Part shown: positions 1 to 8,601 of the stretch, one piece after another
Layout: each line of letters begins with the position of its first letter
How positions within the stretch are numbered: position 1 is the first letter of the stretch
DNA from: Shinella pollutisoli
Lineage (GTDB): Bacteria > Pseudomonadota > Alphaproteobacteria > Rhizobiales > Rhizobiaceae
Reading direction: 5' to 3'
Assembly: GCF_024609765.1 (NCBI RefSeq)
Contig: NZ_JANFDG010000039.1
Location: 1-38,408, forward strand
DNA: 38,408 bases
Notes under the pieces: model-generated
Database searches by the model: none
The model's input: only the letters and a program-made list of their open reading frames with translations
Told to the model about the DNA's origin: nothing
Position numbers and translations under genes: made by a program

Positions 1-654
1 CTCGGCATTCCTCGCCCTGGCAGCCGCAAAGATATGGCTGCCATACTTTGTCAACAGGACCTAGCAGGGCTCTGCCCCTGCGATCATTCCTGCACACGAG
101 ACTCATCCCGAAACCAGGGCAGCCTCGAAATCCGAACACGACACTTCCGGTCATCCTTCGCTATCCGGGCGATGGGGTTCCTGCTCGACCCTGCAAGGGG
201 TTTTGTTCCGGCACTGAGGCAAAGGGGGCACTGGCGAAAAAGAAGAAGAGCGAAGCGACCCGTGAAACTCGAGACTCGATATCTCGAAACCGAGAATCCT
301 GACCCTTTAGAACACAGTTCTGATTTCAAGAATTCAGCTAACGGGACTAAGAGTCTTAACACTGTCGGCTCTAGACAACGAATTGAAACACTGGTTTCTC
401 AGGCGATTGAGAAATGTTTTTCGGTTGAAAACGTAAAACCTTCAAAATTTGCAACCACATCCTCATAATAATTCTCACTATTCTCCTAAAGCCTCCCCCT
501 AACATTATTAACACTGTCAGGCTTAGTCCGCAGACAAGAAACCTTGTTATTCAGGCGGGCGAGATAGATTTTCTGGTTGAAAGCGTAAAAAACTTGTCAG
601 CTATATTGCGCTCTGCACATTCTCGCTGAACCATAATGTTCAGGGAGACTGCAA
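1..654. other. Non-coding region upstream of the replication initiator
   Basis: No convincing gene is seen. Open frames here, such as 34 to 468, have no recognisable domain and improbable composition. The first 250 bases are GC-rich; from about 300 to 640 the sequence becomes clearly AT-rich, unlike the coding parts of the element. A short inverted repeat (tcgaga/tctcga around 269 to 287) and the paired 152-bp-offset repeats described separately lie here. An AT-rich repeat region directly before a Rep_3-type gene is what an iteron-type replication origin and rep promoter would look like, but no DnaA box was identified with confidence. Confidence 0.45.
356..592 (+). repeat. Two diverged direct repeat copies with a fixed 152-bp offset
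   Basis: Copy A (about 356 to 440) and copy B (about 508 to 592) align without any gap. Both begin ttaacactgtc (356 and 508), share tcaggcg (399 and 551), and share ggttgaaa-cgtaaaa (423 and 575), every match being offset by exactly 152. Identity between these blocks is lower but above chance. They lie directly upstream of the replication initiator, so they are candidate initiator-binding sites or duplicated control elements. The function is inferred from position only. Confidence 0.7.
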
Positions 655-2067
655 ATGCAATATCGCAACGCCATCGGACAGCTTGCCTGGTCGTCGAGAA
701 ACGAAGAAGTAGCGCATCGTGCGAGGGATCGTCGTGGCATCCGCGCCGGCGACCTTGTTTGCGAAGCCGTGGCCGACAACGATGTGTCGAACCCTCGTGT
801 CGAAATCCCCTTTGCCCTGACGAAGGGGACGACATTCCGCGTCGTCGAAGGCACCGAAGTTGCCGACAGGCTTACCTCAACGGACCAGGCACTCTGGTAT
901 TATCTGTTCACCCGGGCGAAGGTCGATATCAACAGCCTCGCGAAAGTTGGCAGCGACGGAGGGTTCCGCGACCGCGAAGCCTACCGCGGTGAGGCTCGGG
1001 TGCACAAAGTCACCGTCGGGGACATGCTGGCCTATCTCGGTCTGAAGAACCCGGCGCGGCTGCGAGAGAGCCTGGAGCGCATTGCCGAGACAATGGCGCG
1101 GTACGATATCCGATATCGCGGCACCCGACTGACGAAACCGGTGCCGTACCTGACCGTCCATTCGATGCCGGAGAGGCTTCGGAGCCGGGACGAGATCGGT
1201 TTCGAGCTTCACCCCGAGGTCCGCGTCTGCATGCTCCTCAGCAGAAAATACGTGACCGTCGACCTGAATGCATTGCCGACGTTCAAGAGCCGCTACAGCG
1301 CCCGCCTGTTCGTGAAGCTATCGTACCTGGCGGCTCGTCATCAGGCACTGCTTCGTTCGAAGAAGGACAAGGACGGAAAGGTCGGACCGAACAAAACGTT
1401 CTGGGTGATCGATCCCGAAGCGTTAGCGGCGGAGCTGGGATACCCAGTGCCGACATACCGTGCGTCGACGTTTGCGGCGGCGATGACCAAAGCCATCGCC
1501 GAGATTCAGGCGCTGCCAAAACTGAATCAGAGGTTCGATGTCCTGGCCGTTTTGCCAACGGCAAGGGTTCCGCGCTTCAGCTTCGCCGTGACCGAGGCGC
1601 GAAAGTCGGTCTTCGACGTTCACCGTGCATGGCTCAAACGCGCGGCGTTCTATCACGCTACGGCGCATACCCAGCCACTCAAAAGGGAGAAGATCAACAT
1701 GAAGGACAATCAGTTCGTACATGTGTCCCGGATCGCTCAGGCTGAGGCATTCACGGGTTATGACGGCCTGCGGATTTCAATGGCCTGGCAAGACGATATC
1801 GAAGAGGCGAACGCAGGAATTCGAGACGCGATCGCCGGATGGACGGCCGCCGAGTTCCTGGAGCGGATCGATCGCTTCGGCGTGGACCCGATGTTTGCGT
1901 CATGGCTGGAGCACAAGGTCGCGGCATGGAATATTCCGGAGATTCCACTGGAGCCCGCCGTCGTGGCCGAGGAGGACGCGGTTCATTATTCCTACGGCGA
2001 TGAAGACGAGGAAGATACACGCTGCGGTGACGAGTGGGGTGATATCGGATACGCCGACGCTGCATGA
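655..2067 (+). CDS. Replication initiator protein, Rep_3/RepB-like
   Basis: The 470-residue product resembles Rep_3-type plasmid initiators, which bind iterons through two winged-helix domains and recruit host replication proteins. A first winged-helix region fits residues about 73 to 165, beginning LTSTDQALWYYLF. A second fits about 185 to 305 and contains FKSRYSARLFVKLSYLAARH, like the conserved K-S-x-Y-S-x-R-L-Y helix of the family. The C-terminal third (after about 345) is extra and ends in an acidic tail of about 35 residues. The ATG at 655 has a good Shine-Dalgarno (AGGGAG, 642 to 647, 7 nt spacing). It stands alone, with 192 bp before the next gene. The family call rests on motif recognition and not on a search; a phage-type replication protein is the main alternative. 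Confidence 0.65.
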   Translation: MQYRNAIGQLAWSSRNEEVAHRARDRRGIRAGDLVCEAVADNDVSNPRVEIPFALTKGTTFRVVEGTEVADRLTSTDQALWYYLFTRAKVDINSLAKVGSDGGFRDREAYRGEARVHKVTVGDMLAYLGLKNPARLRESLERIAETMARYDIRYRGTRLTKPVPYLTVHSMPERLRSRDEIGFELHPEVRVCMLLSRKYVTVDLNALPTFKSRYSARLFVKLSYLAARHQALLRSKKDKDGKVGPNKTFWVIDPEALAAELGYPVPTYRASTFAAAMTKAIAEIQALPKLNQRFDVLAVLPTARVPRFSFAVTEARKSVFDVHRAWLKRAAFYHATAHTQPLKREKINMKDNQFVHVSRIAQAEAFTGYDGLRISMAWQDDIEEANAGIRDAIAGWTAAEFLERIDRFGVDPMFASWLEHKVAAWNIPEIPLEPAVVAEEDAVHYSYGDEDEEDTRCGDEWGDIGYADAA

Positions 2068-2211
2068 CGATCGCACTCCGTTAACCGGAACGAAGAAATC
2101 CCGGATGCCGCGTTGACGCCTCCGATCATACGCGGCATGGTTGCGAAGAATTGGAAACCTGAGGTCATGACGAAAGCACTGCGAATAGCCGCCTGAACAC
2201 GAAGATCGCCA

Positions 2212-2223
2212 CCAACCGGTTGG
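2212..2223. promoter_or_regulatory. 12-bp perfect palindrome upstream of the protease operon
   Basis: CCAACCGGTTGG is a perfect palindrome 36 bp before the start codon of the AAA+/M41 protein, in the 192-bp gap after the rep gene. Position suggests an operator for the operon 2260 to 5700. No second copy was noticed in the window, so this is a weak candidate. Confidence 0.35.
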
Positions 2224-2259
2224 CGAGATGTTCAGTTCTGTCTGCAGGAGTTACCCGTC

Positions 2260-4257
2260 ATGGCCGGCAAGCCCAAGCTCTCGTTCGAGCGCGAAATCTC
2301 CCGTCTCCACGTCGCGAAGTTTTTCGCCGACCTCGGCCCCGATCCGAAGGGTGCTCACCTCGTTCTCATCCCCCTGAACGCATCGATGACGCACTGGTAT
2401 CGCGCCGCCGAGGAGTACGTCCGCGAGGCCAAGAAGACTAGCGCGGACAGCCCGAAGCAGACGCAGATGACAGGGACCGTAGAAGACCTGATCGTTGACG
2501 ACGCGGAGTTCGACTTCACGGGCGAACGGCTGTCTTCGCCCTTCGCCGTCGATGTCCAGCTCCTCGGTAATAGCGGCCTCGACGACCGGTTCGAGTTCGG
2601 GGCATGCAACGTGATCCTCTCCGCCGCCGAGAACGAAAACCTGGACCACCCCTCGCTGTTGCTCGTGGACAGCCGCACGGCGGTAGAGCTGGACATCGAC
2701 CTGATCGTTCAGGCGGCGACCACCTGCGGCCGACCGGTCACTCGTGTCGAGGCCTGCCGCCTTTCGCGCATGCCGCACCGTCGTCGCGCCGTTGCGTTCC
2801 GTTCGCCGCGTGCGATTGGCAAGAGCCACGCCCTCCAGGTCGAAGCCGCCAAGCTCGAACGCGAGAAAAAGGAAATCGAGCGTCAGGAGCGTGAAGAGGC
2901 CGCGAAAGCAAAGCGCCGCCCGGCTGATGAGCGCGTCGTTCCCGCCGACACGCCGTATCTCGAAGACATGCACGGCTATGGCCCCGCTGCCGATTGGGGT
3001 CACGAACTCGCGCAGGATATGGAAGACTGGCGCCGCGGCAATATTCGCTGGAACGATGTCGATGGCGGTATTCTCCTGAGCGGCCCTCCGGGGTGCGGCA
3101 AGACGACCTTTGCGAAGTCGCTGGCGCGGTCGCTGGACGCGCATCTCGTCGTTGGCAGCTATTCGGCATGGCTCGGGACGGGTGAAGGTCATCAGGGCAA
3201 TCTTCTGCTGGCAATGCGGGCGGCGTTCGCGGAGGCCATGAAGCATGCGCCGAGCGTCCTTTTGATCGATGAAATCGACAACTTCGTTGCCCGTGGCTCA
3301 ATCGGCAACGGACGCTCGGATGAGTGGAACCGCGGCGTGGTCAATGGCCTCTTGGAGTGCCTGGACGGCGCTGTCGAGCGCGAGGGCGTGGTCGTCGTAG
3401 GCGCGACCAATGATCCGTCGGGCATCGACACGGCGCTCCGCCGTCCGGGTCGCCTCGACCGCCACATCGAAATCCCGCTTCCCGATGCCAAGGCGCGTTC
3501 CGCGATCCTGCGTCAGCACCTCGACGCTAACATTGACGTGACTTGCCTCGACCGTGAGACGGAAGGCATGTCGGGTGCAGACCTCGAACGTGTGGCTCGC
3601 GACGCACGCCGCCGCGCACGCCGTGAGCGTGTCGATGTCGGTATCCACCATGTCCGCGCTTCGCTTCCGGTTCGCCAGAGCCGAACGCCCGCATATCGCC
3701 GTCATATCGCCGTCCACGAAATCGGCCACGCGGTCGTCGCTGTCGCAACCGGCAGCCGTGTGCGCGAGGTTTTTGTGGAACCCGACTTCGTCGCGGACCA
3801 GCCGAGCCACATCGCTGGCGCGGCGGTGGTCAGCATGCGCGAGGGTATCCAGGACTACCAGTGGCATATGGACCGCGTCGCGCACTGCCTCGGCGGTCTG
3901 GCCGCGGAGAAAATGATCTATGGCAGCCACAGCGACAGCGTCTCCGTCGATCTGGTCAATGCGACGAATGCCGCGCGCAACGCCCTTGCGAGCTACGGCA
4001 TGGGCGGCTCGCTGTACTCCCACGGTGTCGCGGGTATGACTGACCTCGCTCGTGCGCAGGATTTCGATCCGGGTCTGCGTCAAAGCATCGACGGCATCCT
4101 GCACGATCAGGCAGCGCGTGCGCGCGCCATTCTCGAGGAACACCGCGAGGCGGTTGCGGAACTCGTCGAGATGCTCCTGCAGCATCACCGCCTGGACGGT
4201 GCGGTCGTGCATGAAGTCGTCGCACGCCCGCGCCGTCAGTTGGCCCTTGCGATCTAA
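2260..4257 (+). CDS. Soluble FtsH-like AAA+ ATPase with M41 zinc metalloprotease domain
   Basis: The 665-residue protein combines an AAA+ unfoldase with an M41-type peptidase. Walker A is GPPGCGKT (275 to 282), Walker B LLIDEID (334 to 340), and the second region of homology runs about 382 to 401 with RRPGRLDR. The zinc motif HEIGH is at 486 to 490, and D564 in a VDLVNAT context matches the third zinc ligand of FtsH. FtsH itself is membrane-anchored; here no transmembrane segment is seen. Instead there is an unrecognised N-terminal domain of about 190 residues and a charged, probably coiled-coil linker (about 195 to 222). It should therefore act as a cytoplasmic ATP-dependent protease. The ATG has AGGAG upstream. 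It heads a four-gene set with very short gaps or overlaps. Substrate and benefit to the element are unknown. Confidence 0.85.
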   Translation: MAGKPKLSFEREISRLHVAKFFADLGPDPKGAHLVLIPLNASMTHWYRAAEEYVREAKKTSADSPKQTQMTGTVEDLIVDDAEFDFTGERLSSPFAVDVQLLGNSGLDDRFEFGACNVILSAAENENLDHPSLLLVDSRTAVELDIDLIVQAATTCGRPVTRVEACRLSRMPHRRRAVAFRSPRAIGKSHALQVEAAKLEREKKEIERQEREEAAKAKRRPADERVVPADTPYLEDMHGYGPAADWGHELAQDMEDWRRGNIRWNDVDGGILLSGPPGCGKTTFAKSLARSLDAHLVVGSYSAWLGTGEGHQGNLLLAMRAAFAEAMKHAPSVLLIDEIDNFVARGSIGNGRSDEWNRGVVNGLLECLDGAVEREGVVVVGATNDPSGIDTALRRPGRLDRHIEIPLPDAKARSAILRQHLDANIDVTCLDRETEGMSGADLERVARDARRRARRERVDVGIHHVRASLPVRQSRTPAYRRHIAVHEIGHAVVAVATGSRVREVFVEPDFVADQPSHIAGAAVVSMREGIQDYQWHMDRVAHCLGGLAAEKMIYGSHSDSVSVDLVNATNAARNALASYGMGGSLYSHGVAGMTDLARAQDFDPGLRQSIDGILHDQAARARAILEEHREAVAELVEMLLQHHRLDGAVVHEVVARPRRQLALAI

Positions 4258-4268
4258 GGGAGGGTCAG

Positions 4269-4805
4269 ATGTTCGTGAAAAAGTTCTACGTCAGCGACAC
4301 CCACTTCGGCCACGCTCTCATGCTGACGTCGGGAGACCGGCCGTTCCGCTCAACGGACGAGATGGACGAAGCAATGATCCACCGCTGGAACACCGCTGTC
4401 GGCGATAATGACATTGTGTATCACCTCGGTGACTTCTCCATGGCTCTCGGCATCGAGGATCGCGTTCGCGGGATTTTCCACCGGTTGCGCGGGCGCAAGT
4501 ACCTGATCCTCGGAAACCACGACTACCGCAAGCCGAATGTCGTCCACCCGACGCTGGCGGGGCTGGAATGGGCCGCGCCGCCGACCCCGGCGCTGGAAAC
4601 GACCGACGAGGGCCATCGCGTCTTTCTGAGCCACTACGCTCATCGTGTATGGCCGGGATCGCATAAAGGTTCGTTCCACTTTTTCGGTCATTCTCACGGT
4701 GCGCTACCACCTCTAGGTCGCAGTCGCGATGTGGGCGTGGATTGCCGTGACGTGGCCTTCAATCCGAAGACATTCGCGGAGCTGACGAAAGGGATGAGGA
4801 AATGA
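4269..4805 (+). CDS. Calcineurin-like metallophosphoesterase
   Basis: The 178-residue protein has the complete two-metal phosphoesterase motif set: D10-x-H12 in SDTHFGH, D55 in HLGDF, N83-H84-D85 in GNHD, H122 in LSHY, and H141-x-H143 in GHSH. Such compact proteins are common in phages and mobile elements and hydrolyse phosphomono- or phosphodiesters; the substrate cannot be read from the sequence. The start has a strong Shine-Dalgarno (GGGAGGG) placed in the 11 bases after the stop of the protease gene. Its stop codon overlaps the next start in ATGA, so translation of the two is probably coupled. A role in nucleic acid end processing or nucleotide signalling is possible but not shown. Confidence 0.88.
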   Translation: MFVKKFYVSDTHFGHALMLTSGDRPFRSTDEMDEAMIHRWNTAVGDNDIVYHLGDFSMALGIEDRVRGIFHRLRGRKYLILGNHDYRKPNVVHPTLAGLEWAAPPTPALETTDEGHRVFLSHYAHRVWPGSHKGSFHFFGHSHGALPPLGRSRDVGVDCRDVAFNPKTFAELTKGMRK

Positions 4806-5089
4806 CCGGCGAAGAACTGAACAACATCTACGGCAATATCATCATGCCGGATGCGACGGTCGCGGTGCCTGCTCAGTGGATGCCTGCCGTCCACGAGGCC
4901 TTGCAGGCGCTGCATGACCTTCCGGGCAGCGTGCGTGCATTCCTCATCGTCACGGGTTTCGGCGAAGAGAACGGCCATCTGGTCGTCGAGATGGTCGCGT
5001 CGACGCAATACATTTCCGCCGACGGCATGGCCGCGATCGCATCGATCGTGGAGAGGGCGCAGGCCGCCGTCCTCGCGCGGAGGCACTGA
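4802..5089 (+). CDS. Small hypothetical protein of the protease operon
   Basis: This 95-residue protein is not recognised. It is mixed alpha/beta in appearance: a hydrophobic strand SVRAFLIVTGF near residues 43 to 53, then a second strand HLVVEMVAST, then a helical end. There is no signal peptide, membrane segment or cysteine cluster. It overlaps the metallophosphoesterase by four bases (ATGA) and shares one base with the next start (TGATG). This strongly supports it as a genuine translated member of the operon despite its size. Confidence 0.65.
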   Translation: MTGEELNNIYGNIIMPDATVAVPAQWMPAVHEALQALHDLPGSVRAFLIVTGFGEENGHLVVEMVASTQYISADGMAAIASIVERAQAAVLARRH

Positions 5090-5700
5090 TGCGCTTGGAA
5101 TACGATCTCGAAATCCGAGACCTGTCGTGCGGCATTGTTCGCGATGGCCTCGGGATGGATATCGGCGACGGTTGGCGTGAGATTGCGGTTGATGCCATCG
5201 GTCGCCTGGCGGAGGTGTCTCACGGCCGCGTGGAGGTGGAGAAGGTCGGCGAAAAGTGGGGCCTCCTCGACATCCGTCCTGGTGTTCGGGGTCTCGACAT
5301 CGACACGATCCGCGCCGTCTTCGACATCGCGTCACAGGCCCGATCGAGGTCGGCGGATATCTGCGAACTCTGCGGTCGGTTCGGCGAAATCCGCCGTGCC
5401 GGTTGGCACCGCGTCCGTTGTGACGACTGCGAAGCTGAACACGTCCGACGTCATGAGTTTGTCGGATGGAACCGGAAGGATATCGCCGAGGCCGCTGCCT
5501 ACTACATCGGCGTATGCCTGGAGCACGGCAGGCTTTTTCCTGTCGGGAATATCATAATCCAGCTCTGGCCTGACGACATCGATCGCCGCCATTTTGTCGA
5601 TGAGGTCAACTTCACTGTCGCCTGGTGGCGGGCTGGATCGATGATCGTTGGTGTCTCCGACGACCTGCGCGAGGCCTTCCGCAAGCTCCGTTTCCGATAG
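5089..5700 (+). CDS. Zinc-finger protein, first of two paralogues
   Basis: The 203-residue protein has one four-cysteine zinc-binding site, C92-x2-C95-x15-C111-x2-C114 (CELCG...CDDC). An N-terminal part contains GDGWREIAVDAI (27 to 37) and VEVEKVGEKWGLLDI (48 to 62). This order (GW helix, a K-WG strand, then CxxC...CxxC) matches a class of small uncharacterised proteins common in phages and mobile elements. The C-terminal 85 residues have no recognised fold. The start overlaps the previous stop by one base. Its stop codon lies inside the left arm of a perfect inverted repeat that reaches the next gene. The gene at 5738 is a diverged paralogue with identical cysteine spacing. Function unknown. 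Confidence 0.75.
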   Translation: MRLEYDLEIRDLSCGIVRDGLGMDIGDGWREIAVDAIGRLAEVSHGRVEVEKVGEKWGLLDIRPGVRGLDIDTIRAVFDIASQARSRSADICELCGRFGEIRRAGWHRVRCDDCEAEHVRRHEFVGWNRKDIAEAAAYYIGVCLEHGRLFPVGNIIIQLWPDDIDRRHFVDEVNFTVAWWRAGSMIVGVSDDLREAFRKLRFR

Positions 5701-5738
5701 CGGTTGTTACTGAATCCAGGAAATAGGAACAACCGCTA
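5698..5738 (+). promoter_or_regulatory. 11-bp perfect inverted repeat joining stop and start codons
   Basis: Arms TAGCGGTTGTT (5698 to 5708) and AACAACCGCTA (5728 to 5738) are perfect reverse complements around a 19-base loop. The left arm starts with the TAG stop of the first zinc-finger gene, and the right arm ends with the A of the ATG of the second. The ribosome-binding candidate (AGGAA, 5725 to 5729) falls in the loop and the start of the right arm. In mRNA this could make translation of the second gene depend on ribosomes reaching the upstream stop; alternatively it is an operator. There is no T-tract, so it is not a standard terminator. Confidence 0.6.
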
Positions 5739-6547
5739 TGGAAGACTGGCTGACAAACCTGCGCCGCAGATATCAGATCAACGAAGACGCCGAGTTTTCG
5801 GTCCGGCACGGATGGCGTGGCATCGTCGAGCGATTTTACGACGAGGCCGCGGCGACCGTCGGCGATCCTGCGAAGATGTTCACGCTTCAGGTCAAACAGA
5901 AGTTGGCACGCCTGGACATCCATGTCCGCGTCGCCGACGAACACCGCACAATGATCAATTGGTACATCAAGGCCGCCGAGGAAGAGGCATCGCGGACATG
6001 CGAGCACTGCGGGTCGCCGAACGGATCGCAGACGGTACGACAGCACATCATCGAGTGCGACGACTGCCGCGACTTCGATCTCGCGCTCGACCAGCGCGGC
6101 CGCCGCGCGACCGAAATCAAAGCCGCCGCCCGCAGGTATGTTCGCGACTGCGCGCATGCCGGAAAAGTCCTCGACATCCGAGAATGGGCCGAGCGTCGTT
6201 GGCGGAAGGATAGTCCGCCGAAGCGGAACGCGATGACCGCCGCTCTCCGTGAGGAAATCCGACTGGGCGTTGCCGTCGTCGACATTTGGCGGCGCTTCGA
6301 GGTCGGAGGGAAGATCGCTCTCGAACTAATCGGAGCAAAGACCTACGCCGACCTGTACCGGATTCTCCGCGACAAGGAATTGGCCCCCGGCTTTCGACCT
6401 GGGGAGGTCGTCCAGTGGGTTGCTGACGGGAAAATGGATAGTCACCGCGTCGGCGAGATTTTCGGGATTGCCGACGACGAGGTCGAGGCATTCGTGTCGG
6501 CGTGGCTTGCCAATGAAGGCACCCCAAAAGGCGACGAGGAGCCGTAA
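5738..6547 (+). CDS. Zinc-finger protein, second paralogue with C-terminal extension
   Basis: The 269-residue protein repeats the plan of the gene before it: HGWRGIVERFY (24 to 34), QVKQKLARLDI (51 to 61), then C88-x2-C91-x15-C107-x2-C110 (CEHCG...CDDC). The x15 spacing is the same, and the distance from the GW pair to the first cysteine is nearly the same (62 against 63). It differs by a longer C-terminal part (about 115 to 269). That part is helical, basic near 150, and contains VDIWRRFEVGGKIALELIG and VQWVADGKM, which could be helix-turn-helix-like DNA-binding segments. The gene is bounded on both sides by inverted repeats starting at stop codons. A regulatory or DNA-binding role is plausible but unproven. 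Confidence 0.7.
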   Translation: MEDWLTNLRRRYQINEDAEFSVRHGWRGIVERFYDEAAATVGDPAKMFTLQVKQKLARLDIHVRVADEHRTMINWYIKAAEEEASRTCEHCGSPNGSQTVRQHIIECDDCRDFDLALDQRGRRATEIKAAARRYVRDCAHAGKVLDIREWAERRWRKDSPPKRNAMTAALREEIRLGVAVVDIWRRFEVGGKIALELIGAKTYADLYRILRDKELAPGFRPGEVVQWVADGKMDSHRVGEIFGIADDEVEAFVSAWLANEGTPKGDEEP

Positions 6548-6592
6548 TTCAAGAACTCGAAGCATACGCGTATTGGTTGAGTTCTTGAATTA
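6545..6592. promoter_or_regulatory. 48-bp nested palindrome after the second zinc-finger gene
   Basis: Arms TAATTCAAGAACTC (6545 to 6558) and GAGTTCTTGAATTA (6579 to 6592) are perfect 14-bp reverse complements. Centred on exactly the same point (6568.5) is a second perfect palindrome, ATACGCGTAT (6564 to 6573). The left arm begins with the TAA stop codon. The stem is AT-rich and no T-run follows, so a rho-independent terminator is unlikely. A concentric dyad suggests a binding site for a symmetric protein complex. The half-site ATTCAAGA recurs nearby at about 6635 (aattcaagactcc), and a related ttcaagaattc lies at about 324 to 334 before the rep gene. Confidence 0.65.
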
Positions 6593-6817
6593 TGAGACGA
6601 TAGGAGCTCCAGTTTGAAATAAATTTCAAAGAAGAATTCAAGACTCCGTTAAATCACTGTTTTCAATTTGTAAGTTTCGCATGCAGAAGCAGCCGCGCGA
6701 CATTCTGGCATCGGAACCACCGTCAAGGAATTAATTATCCCCGGTTGTTATTCAGTTGTTGACGAGATGCCGTCATTCGTGATTTTTGCACCGACGAAAA
6801 ACGTGGAAGGTCGTATG
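6593..6817. other. AT-rich intergenic region before the excisionase/integrase pair
   Basis: No gene is seen. The stretch is AT-rich relative to its surroundings and contains another copy of the half-site aattcaaga (about 6634). It presumably holds the promoter for the excisionase-like gene and the integrase, and may include recombination directionality sites. No clear -35/-10 pair stands out. Confidence 0.4.
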
Positions 6818-7387
6818 ATGAGCGCTAACGATGATGACGATTGGATGTCCCTGGACATGTCCGGTCTGTCCCGCCGACTGGTAGCCGACATGGAGGAGCT
6901 GATCGTTGACCTTGATGTGTCATCTCAGCGGAACTTGGAGCAGTTGGCGGAAATCGAGCGGGGGCAGATTCCGCTTCACGCTCCCGACGATATGGCATTG
7001 CCGCTCGCGCGCATCATCTGTCATCCGGCATTCGGTGGACATCTGGCTGCCGACCCCGCTTGGGACATACCAGGCGCCACTCTCACCGTGGACAAACTCA
7101 GAGAGGCGATCAAACGCGGGCATCTTAAGGACTGCCCTGTTGATCTGAAAAACCGATACACGACCGTAGCGAATATCAAGGAGTGGCTGGCAGAATGGCC
7201 CGACGTCGAGAACCCCCGCGAATTGAACTCCAGGCCGAACGCAAGCATCGCAATGGCAGCGTCGAAAAAGCCGTCTGGGTCATCAAACATTTCGACGAGG
7301 GAAAAGGACGCCAAGCTGTCATCAGCACAGGCTTCGGCGCTGATGAAGGCGCAGACGCTCAGAAATACTTTGCGCAGTGGCTCGTAG
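6818..7387 (+). CDS. Excisionase-like DNA-binding protein
   Basis: The frame from the chosen ATG encodes 189 residues. Residues about 89 to 127 (LTVDKLREAIKRGHL...YTTVANIKEWLAEW) look like the MerR/excisionase winged-helix fold, in which a helix-turn-helix sets a residue at the N-terminus of the helix and the wing precedes a final helix. Such proteins control the direction of site-specific recombination, and this one sits directly before the integrase. ATG 6818 is preferred over 6767 or 6815 because GGAAGG (6805 to 6810) is 7 bases upstream. The last 63 codons overlap the integrase in another frame and are low in complexity (Ser, Ala, Lys rich), so the functional protein may effectively end near the overlap. 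Family call is from pattern only. Confidence 0.6.
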   Translation: MSANDDDDWMSLDMSGLSRRLVADMEELIVDLDVSSQRNLEQLAEIERGQIPLHAPDDMALPLARIICHPAFGGHLAADPAWDIPGATLTVDKLREAIKRGHLKDCPVDLKNRYTTVANIKEWLAEWPDVENPRELNSRPNASIAMAASKKPSGSSNISTREKDAKLSSAQASALMKAQTLRNTLRSGS

Positions 7388-8532
7388 AAAAGACATCCGA
7401 CCAGCCGGTTGCACGTAACCGCGACGCGGGCGACGTTCCCGTTGCCGAAGTCCTCGACTATTTCATCGAAGAGAGGATCAAGTTGAAGGTGGGCAGTTCC
7501 CATCGACCGCTCGCGCGGCCGCAAGAGGTTCTCGCCTATGTCATTGACCTCCTCAACTGGTGGGGAAAGAAGACGGTGGCGGAGGTCACGCGACAAAACT
7601 GCCAGCGCTACGCCGAACACTGCTCGACGCCGACAGCGGGGCGCAACAGGCTCGAATATCTTCGGCGAGCGATCAACCTGGCGCAGGACGATGGCATCCT
7701 TGTCGTGGCGCCGAAGGTGCACCTCCCGCCGAAGCCGGCTGCCCGGGATGAGGTGTTCGAGCGAGATGACATCGCCAAGCTTATGCGCCACTGCCTTCGC
7801 CGAGGGACGTACACCTACGGTGAGGCCAAGTCCAAAGGAACAGGCAAGGTCGGCCAGGTCCGGGAGACGAAGCGCCGCCCGCATCGGCATCTCATGTCTT
7901 ACATCCTCATGGCGACATATACCGGAACGCGTTCAAACAGGATGTTCACGGCATCATTCGTCCGGGAGGCAGGTCGTCCGTGGATCGATTTGAAACGCGG
8001 CATCTACCATCGGGCAGCCCCGAAGGAGGATGTTGCACCCAACAAGGGAGCGCCAACGTGTAAAATTCCGAAGAGGCTCCTGCGGCACATGCGACGCTGG
8101 TACATGCTCGGCCGCCGTTACCCGATCGAGTACAACGGCAAGCCGATTAAATCGAGCAAAGGTCTCCGAAAGATCATCCGCGAGCTGTTCCCCGACAAGG
8201 ATCTCGTACCCCACTCCTTCCGTCACACCGCGGCGACTTGGCTGATGCGCCGTTCCGAGTTGTCGGTCCATGACATCTCCGGTTTCCTCGGGATGTCGCT
8301 GGAAATCCTGGACCGCACGTACGGACACCATCGGGTATCGCACCAATCAGCGATTGACGATGCAATCTCCAGTGGAGGTATCGGCAAGATCGAGAAAGAC
8401 GATCCGCTTGAAGATGAGTTCAATTATGGCGACATCACACCATTGGATACCATGAGAAACAACTCGAACCAAGGTAAATCAACTCGGACCAAACGGAACG
8501 GAAACACTGAAAAGTCAAGGGATGCAGCCTGA
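7195..8532 (+). CDS. Tyrosine recombinase/integrase
   Basis: The 445-residue protein has an N-terminal SAM-like core-binding region (about 85 to 170) and a C-terminal catalytic domain. Catalytic residues are recognisable: R246 in TGTR, H340-x-x-R343 in HSFRHT, and the nucleophile Y376 in LDRTYGHH. The usual second histidine (LGH) is Met367 in FLGM, a replacement seen in some integrases. ATG 7195 is chosen because AAGGAG precedes it by about 11 bases; a GTG at 7183 would add four residues. It overlaps the excisionase-like frame by 193 bases. The gene ends 21 bases before the tRNA-Pro fragment, the expected layout of integrase beside its attachment site. It should catalyse integration and excision at tRNA-Pro(CGG). 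Confidence 0.93.
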   Translation: MARRREPPRIELQAERKHRNGSVEKAVWVIKHFDEGKGRQAVISTGFGADEGADAQKYFAQWLVEKTSDQPVARNRDAGDVPVAEVLDYFIEERIKLKVGSSHRPLARPQEVLAYVIDLLNWWGKKTVAEVTRQNCQRYAEHCSTPTAGRNRLEYLRRAINLAQDDGILVVAPKVHLPPKPAARDEVFERDDIAKLMRHCLRRGTYTYGEAKSKGTGKVGQVRETKRRPHRHLMSYILMATYTGTRSNRMFTASFVREAGRPWIDLKRGIYHRAAPKEDVAPNKGAPTCKIPKRLLRHMRRWYMLGRRYPIEYNGKPIKSSKGLRKIIRELFPDKDLVPHSFRHTAATWLMRRSELSVHDISGFLGMSLEILDRTYGHHRVSHQSAIDDAISSGGIGKIEKDDPLEDEFNYGDITPLDTMRNNSNQGKSTRTKRNGNTEKSRDAA

Positions 8533-8553
8533 CTAGAACTCTGATCAACAGAT

Positions 8554-8598
8554 TTCGGGACGTGGGGGTCGCGTGTTCGAATCACGCCACTCCGACCA
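8554..8598 (+). tRNA. 3' fragment of tRNA-Pro(CGG): attachment site (att)
   Basis: From the anticodon loop onward this is a tRNA: loop TTCGGGA with anticodon CGG (8556 to 8558), variable loop gggtc, T stem gcgtg/cacgc (8571 to 8575 and 8583 to 8587) around TTCGAAT, acceptor strand cactccg (8588 to 8594), discriminator A and encoded CCA (8596 to 8598). The 5' strand of the anticodon stem is absent: upstream bases do not pair with cgtgg. So this is not a functional tRNA but the part duplicated by integration. A crossover core somewhere within these about 45 bases is expected. Loop and variable-region pattern match bacterial tRNA-Pro(CGG). Confidence 0.9.
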
Positions 8599-8601
8599 GC
8601 C

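Follow-up and report, generated by a model that had tools for sequence, protein, structure and literature searches.

M41 metalloproteases are, to our knowledge, known as membrane proteins, and FtsH relatives perform quality control. In IetAS, an AAA ATPase is coupled to proteolysis. M41 proteases are also carried on mobile DNA, among them FtsH homologues in jumbo phages. Pseudomonas clone C has an island-encoded FtsH2 that is inner-membrane associated (PMC10850787). Here we analyse a gene at 2260..4257 (+ strand) of a 38,408-nucleotide (nt) stretch of DNA from Shinella pollutisoli (assembly GCF_024609765.1, contig NZ_JANFDG010000039.1, positions 1 to 38,408), which we refer to at its full length as the window. 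Pfam domains, motifs, alignment and structure matches point to a soluble AAA+/M41 metalloprotease of 665 amino acids (aa), and the element that carries it is a tRNA-Pro-integrated relative of temperate phages with a lambda-type portal, a family in which the protease is an accessory gene. The protein represents a putatively soluble M41 branch with another N-domain, spread over phages, plasmids and islands; among the papers listed from the open-licence PMC literature, none describes a phage M41 protease that is soluble.

The catalytic part shares with FtsH/HflB (TIGR01241, M41) an AAA+ core, a lid and an M41 domain in which HExxH is joined by a distal Asp. The AAA core covers residues 271-407 (3070..3480; PF00004, E 2.3e-29) and includes a Walker A motif, GPPGCGKT, at residue 275 and IDEID at 336. 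The M41 peptidase domain, residues 478-652 (3691..4215; PF01434, E 1.2e-15), scores 58.3 bits against a Pfam cut-off of 29.9, and holds HEIGH at residues 486-490 (nt 3715-3729) and D564 of an SVDL motif at nt 3949-3951. H486, E487, H490 and D564 are invariant in 29/29 aligned relatives, and solved FtsH structures match the AAA-M41 part over its full extent; the protein is presumably an active protease. It differs from FtsH in having no predicted transmembrane segment and another N-domain: its top 19-residue hydropathy is 1.14, compared with 2.36 and 2.40 at the N-terminal ends of the other two M41 proteins that the host encodes, which we took as membrane FtsH. It also falls short of the FtsH equivalog cut-off (180.5 bits vs 600), and its pore loop, AWLGTG, has Trp where FtsH has Phe. 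In its catalytic part it is FtsH-like, but by anchor and equivalog score it is not an FtsH. The open reading frame (ORF) at 2260-4257 is a member of a family of soluble M41 proteins found mainly in Rhizobiaceae. The gene is under purifying selection across its whole length: the ratio of nonsynonymous to synonymous substitution rates (dN/dS) against a relative from IMG/VR (L183) is 0.22, with 0.28 in the N-domain, 0.12 in the AAA part and 0.24 in the M41 part. A first-pass annotation of this DNA had described a complete AAA+ module and an M41 zinc site in a membrane-free, FtsH-like protein on a mobile element, and this description holds.

The same annotation had proposed a novel N-terminal domain of about 190 residues in place of the FtsH membrane anchor. 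The part about the anchor stands: by sequence and by hydropathy the N-domain is not one, and neither a membrane anchor nor an FtsH extracellular domain is among the best 25 of 29 Pfam matches. Among the family matches listed for the protein (at most the best 25 per search), the sole one lying inside residues 1-230 is an 18-residue Pfam hit below cut-off (E 0.023), and two PHROG matches (E 0.005-0.007) extend back only to residues 189-193. The novelty is smaller than claimed. An iterated profile built from the window's clade finds the domain, which is closer to 180 residues, at 66 of the 67 N-termini compared, which come from soluble M41 relatives in phages and in Rhizobiaceae genomes (the members of 72 family sequences that carry the P-loop pattern); among 1108 control sequences, made up of neighbour proteins and shuffles, it matched one, which is the AAA core belonging to a split relative. 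At a threshold of 1e-4, two of the ten phage proteases, L260 and L261, had no match to the N-domain. With up to 15 candidates scored per genome, the profile was found in 49/199 sampled Rhizobiaceae genomes and in 2/190 genomes class-wide, one of the two being the window's own. Hydropathy exceeds 1.6 in 20 of 102 N-termini (duplicates included), which may reflect strand hydrophobicity.

Structure prediction suggests what the domain might be. The AlphaFold2 model of residues 9-181 (2284..2802) has a predicted local distance difference test score (pLDDT) of 84 and follows the order alpha-beta-alpha-beta-beta-beta, short helices and three helices, then a long helix at residues 186-218 (to nt 2913). 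Among the best 50 of 463 Foldseek matches in the PDB (E <=10), all come from AAA+ ATPase entries or complexes containing them, by entry title including proteasome, YjoB, RuvB, p97 and spastin; the matches are weak, with E of at least 0.065 and a template modelling score of about 0.3. Many of the best 50 matches in a viral library are AAA or clamp-loader proteins, the rest helicases or unnamed. Alignment of the N-domain profile with the family's own AAA domain (hhalign) gave E values of 2e-4 to 8e-4 at a probability of 25-50%, compared with 0.34-0.39 for N-domain against M41, 0.029 for M41 against AAA and 0.56-0.9 for six column shuffles. On this moderate evidence the N-domain is probably a P-loop-less AAA-like module.

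The protease gene lies in an early operon whose first gene (655..2067, + strand) encodes a putative Rep3-like replication initiator (Rep) of 470 aa. Its Rep3_N match is below cut-off (E 0.0093); the relative in L034 (532 aa) scores above it, and in relatives a gene matching the Rep profile is found upstream of the protease or its partner. That partner, a calcineurin-like metallophosphoesterase (MPE) of 178 aa (4269..4805; phrog_547, E 2.4e-40), follows the protease. In the typical arrangement an AbiEii-like gene and C2, a small gene beside rep, occupy one strand, and Rep, an optional gene of 313-347 aa, protease, MPE, a 95-aa gene, zinc-finger genes and integrase occupy the other, although individual loci have lost some of these. 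The protease had been thought to lead an overlapping set of four genes. The set does recur, but it is larger and ends in the integrase, the initiator gene precedes the protease, and protease and MPE are separated by an 11-bp gap (4258-4268), the overlaps lying further on, at 4802-4805 and base 5089.

Relatives of this operon place it in a phage family. All seven IMG/VR contigs with the protease from the initial scan match the lambda-type portal phrog_21, and ten genes scanned on four of these contigs have matches to families of terminase, portal, head, tail or endolysin proteins. Two of the ten come from contig G200, whose structural genes we did not use as evidence on the closest phage relative, because a second integrase of opposite strand (L183:11385-12647) starts there directly past the tRNA-Pro core. 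G200 probably holds two elements in tandem at one attachment site, and its structural genes may belong to the neighbour. Two prophages, each with one ORF matching the module's integrase profile, are bounded by repeats at tRNA-Pro genes: 47.7 kb in G203 (7869-55566; a perfect 54-bp repeat, anticodon CGG) and 50.9 kb in G205 (3381-54258; a 49-bp repeat, anticodon TGG).

Searching with MPE rather than the protease gave 39 IMG/VR loci. The best 19 (at least 53% identity) all have a Rep-profile gene upstream, and phrog_21 is present on all 19 contigs; we excluded the 20 weaker matches (at most 46% identity, L264-L283), which showed neither Rep nor protease in the flanking sequence retrieved. L257/L258 and L259/L263 are alike in gene layout, so that the 19 contigs are not all independent. 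The protease is present in 10 of the 19, five times before MPE and five times after it; in the other nine no match was found over the whole contig at E 1e-5, and contigs can be fragments. In L244, Rep and MPE lie 176 bp apart with no protease between them. Because it is found in some of these contigs, not found in others, and stands on either side of MPE, the protease is an accessory gene of the phage family. Phages that differ in the protease beside the same genes offer a clean genetic comparison of what a phage gains from an AAA+ protease of its own. None of 50,697 phage records covers 80% of the protein; the 35 that match do so at 25-32% identity over parts of residues 234-656 only. The 666-position profile phrog_30773, annotated as of unknown function, matches residues 267-656 (E 2.4e-40), excluding the N-domain.

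Optional presence bears on what the protease might do. A general cytosolic quality-control enzyme, or a chaperone-protease that helps phage or element proteins assemble, would agree with the role of FtsH relatives, and a mobile FtsH xenolog in Pseudomonas aeruginosa clone C (PMC6629908) offers a precedent. Both the optional presence of the protease and the narrow spread of its N-domain across genomes speak against such a housekeeping role, which we consider quite improbable.

We next consider how the protease has evolved with its neighbours. In 18 distinct module loci (the window, L034, L183, L036, L037, L102-L108, L184-L188 and L042), MPE directly adjoins the protease in 17 and lies within three genes in all, in line with the first-pass view of a protease carried with its own partners. 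L109, with an initiator-like match at position -1 and no MPE found, was left out; the MPE of L037, L102 and L105, missed by the script that called genes outside annotated records, was located by annotation or tblastn, and that of L187 is from a different family. The metal-motif residues D10, H12, D55, N83, H84, H122, H141 and H143 of MPE are invariant in 15/15 aligned sequences. Rank correlation of pairwise divergences over module loci, with 500 permutations, ties the AAA-M41 part to MPE (rho 0.71, 17 loci) and the N-domain likewise (rho 0.68), values that no permutation reached. Neither part tracks Rep: rho is -0.01 for AAA-M41 (15 loci, reached by 281/500) and 0.02 for the N-domain (183/500). 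An alternative measure gave 0.03 for the N-domain and 0.00 for the catalytic part, and global alignment 0.17 and 0.13, with a partial correlation of 0.11 (reached by 250/2000 permutations). The difference between MPE and Rep persists in all four reduced sets, from which clades had been removed or in which they had been thinned. The AAA-M41 part gave rho -0.23 against the integrase (10 loci, 434/500). With the AbiEii-like gene, 4-5 genes apart, its divergence correlates at rho 0.74 (11 loci, 0/500); between MPE and the AbiEii-like gene the value is 0.13 (78/500).

Pairs of loci illustrate the exchange of initiators. The window and L034 are 100% identical over about 1.8 kb (approximately 3301-5100, in windows of 150 bp), spanning the rear AAA region, M41, MPE and most of the 95-aa gene, and mostly 70-90% identical on the flanks, which suggests recent recombination within the cassette. 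Their N-domains are 70% identical and their Reps 27%; between L184 and L186 the figures are 71% and 29%. The reverse holds for the window and L186, with Reps 64% identical and N-domains 26%. At three loci (L103, L106 and L042) the Rep profile detected no gene. Among the functions first suggested was control of the initiator, a role that might extend to the element's copy number. The protease does lie close to the initiator gene, and in other systems plasmid and phage initiators are substrates of AAA+ proteases. But its divergence tracks MPE and not Rep, and therefore the protease seems not to be tuned to its initiator; with correlations of 0.0 to 0.2 by all three measures, initiators freely swapped and three loci lacking a Rep-profile gene, we regard this role as very improbable.

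The small gene C2 is relevant to a further alternative, that the protease degrades a phage regulator and thereby triggers induction or integration. In such control by proteolysis, host FtsH degrades lambda CII and ImmA cleaves ImmR. FtsH control of the phage decision is established (PMC1838920), and on biological precedent this is the main rival; the operon, moreover, starts at the divergent rep/C2 region and ends in the integrase. Against it, sibling phage contigs with the same operon include the nine in which the protease was not found, and co-divergence between the AAA-M41 part and C2 is weak (rho 0.30, 3/500), whereas C2 tracks Rep (rho 0.66, 0/500). We therefore think regulator turnover unlikely, if less so than a housekeeping or initiator-directed role.

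The reading we favour, tentatively and with slightly less than even confidence, is that of a cytosolic conflict protease, acting either in takeover and counter-defence or in defence by the prophage. We prefer it because the protease is optional, predicted to be cytosolic, placed in the rep-integrase operon and follows MPE rather than the initiator, and because relatives occur on plasmids, on islands and near Tn7-like genes. The Rep-MPE-zinc-finger-integrase operon of these phages would then carry, as an option, a cytosolic ATP-dependent metalloprotease whose AAA+ ring might unfold substrates and thread them into the M41 chamber. The N-domain, in place of the FtsH membrane anchor, is likely the substrate- or adaptor-binding part. 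The protease would act early, and would remove host or rival-phage proteins or protect the lysogen, rather than serve a core step of replication or lysogeny. Its presence in 10 of 19 contigs fits both of two first-pass suggestions, degradation of host or rival-phage proteins and a defence module.

The defensive branch of this conflict reading, in which the prophage would kill or block superinfecting phages by means of the protease alone or with MPE, accounts for part of the confidence we place in the whole and is by itself unlikely. The occurrence of relatives not just in phages but also on islands, on plasmids of Shinella and close to Tn7-like transposition genes would suit it, as would partners in the wider family that include a protein with a presumed nuclease-like motif; an MPE partner of another family matches the PADLOC candidate PDC-S10 (E 1.1e-15). 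Yet no named defence system was matched beyond the ordinary FtsH level, and the protease sits in a rep-integrase operon, not a recognised lysogeny-expressed locus. A bolder proposal, which we hold to be similarly doubtful, is that these proteins make up a new class of M41 machines, soluble and accompanied by partners. The class would include natural split forms, with AAA core and lid-plus-protease as separate subunits, and its phage form would be a counter-defence cassette in which the protease might destroy host or rival defence proteins early in infection while the adjacent MPE removes a phosphorylated or nucleotide signal.

Several points weigh against the favoured conflict reading. MPE occurs without the protease in 9/19 contigs and is in this sense independent of it, which also led us to reject the idea of an inseparable pair. 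Adjacency alone could explain part of the co-divergence of protease and MPE, though the equally close Rep shows none. Similarity to the anti-phage protein IetA is uninformative, the host's own FtsH scoring better (2.8e-37) than the protease (1.9e-21), and we rejected kinship with IetA as a sign of defence on the strength of that control. A function in stress or fitness would also be conceivable for an accessory gene. Finally, the element is broken in this genome, and the role of the protease may have been lost there.

The comparison with IetAS can be taken further. The protease scores 77 bits against the IetA equivalog cut-off of 510, it has its M41 protease in the same chain, and no S8 protease partner was matched among the operon proteins scanned. 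On the Shinella sumterensis plasmid NZ_CP132305.1, which also has a relative of the module, an ATP-binding protein lies beside an S8 family peptidase (131754-135183), an arrangement reminiscent of IetAS by annotation.

Downstream of MPE, still on the + strand, follow a 95-aa conserved protein (4802..5089), with the same gene after MPE in L034, L035, L036 and L104, and two zinc-finger-like proteins, one of 203 aa (5089..5700), present in module loci, and one of 269 aa (5738..6547) with a weak C-terminal excisionase-like match below cut-off (TIGR01764, E 0.0017). These two cluster together, each with a CxxC...CxxC pair, and are probable paralogues. A tyrosine integrase of 449 aa (7183..8532; phrog_1, E 3.9e-26) comes next, followed by the element's right boundary, an attachment-site copy (8554..8599, 46 bp) with 96% identity to the 3' end of the intact tRNA-Pro(CGG) gene on contig C50. 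DNA identity to the phage relative L035 spans 195-8599 and ends exactly at 8599. Integrase, attachment site, Rep and MPE thus all lie together in the window.

At the other end, near the contig break, lies a 20-bp sequence (45..64), which we take to be the end of an IS481 insertion sequence, identified as a repeated element by shared contig ends: it recurs near both ends of contig C52 (L208) and close to the end of C50. Further genes of the kind found in these phage-related elements are present on C52, namely an AbiEii-like nucleotidyltransferase (73% identity to the L183 gene) and neighbours. In the AbiE toxin-antitoxin system AbiEii is paired with the antitoxin AbiEi; the neighbour here has a PcfJ-like match just below cut-off. 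From the shared ends we infer that the window belongs with C50 and C52 to a single element, which appears to be a prophage remnant broken by insertions of a single insertion sequence. Because neither phrog_21 (lambda-type portal) nor phrog_15 (terminase) has a match anywhere in the window's genome, the element is apparently an insertion-broken, capsid-less relative or remnant of a temperate phage; the genome's four terminase-like matches to phrog_2, not tied to it, are on other contigs. Loci in Shinella H4-D48 and Xaviernesmea retain the module together with genes typical of the phage right end. With gene starts read by eye, no phrog_21 match, this being the one capsid family scanned, lies near them, and their genomes have a single match elsewhere; these loci may be decayed prophages. 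Capsid-less phage-related islands (phage satellites) likewise combine an integrase with their own initiator.

Outside the phage module, 38 of 49 soluble M41 loci have a recurrent partner within three genes, the set excluding motif-filter failures and its 8 module loci. The partners are MPE (11/49), a 205-aa protein, a 330-aa protein with a PD-(D/E)xK-like motif, and DUF6634. The motif of the roughly 330-aa partner (for example L043:10543-11529; found among L039-L097) reads yxPDL...DVKRSL and is, we assume, nuclease-like. Together with the roughly 205-aa partner (for example L039:6782-7420), it lies mostly directly upstream of the protease, and some of these loci are near TniQ or Mu-type (Tn7-like) transposition genes. 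Two Shinella plasmids carry full-length relatives of the protease at 62-63% identity.

Some relatives divide the enzyme between two genes. In 8 of 16 AAA-only relatives examined (L218-L223, L225 and L232, all in further Rhizobiaceae genomes, one of which is of the same genus as the window), a separate gene of 250-312 aa comes after the gene for the AAA core and encodes an AAA lid together with an HExxH-bearing M41 domain; in L218, AAA_lid_3 and M41 of this second gene are both above the Pfam cut-off. In L223, one small gene intervenes between the two. Such split relatives are unusual in that a natural AAA+ module has its large subdomain in one protein and its lid in another.

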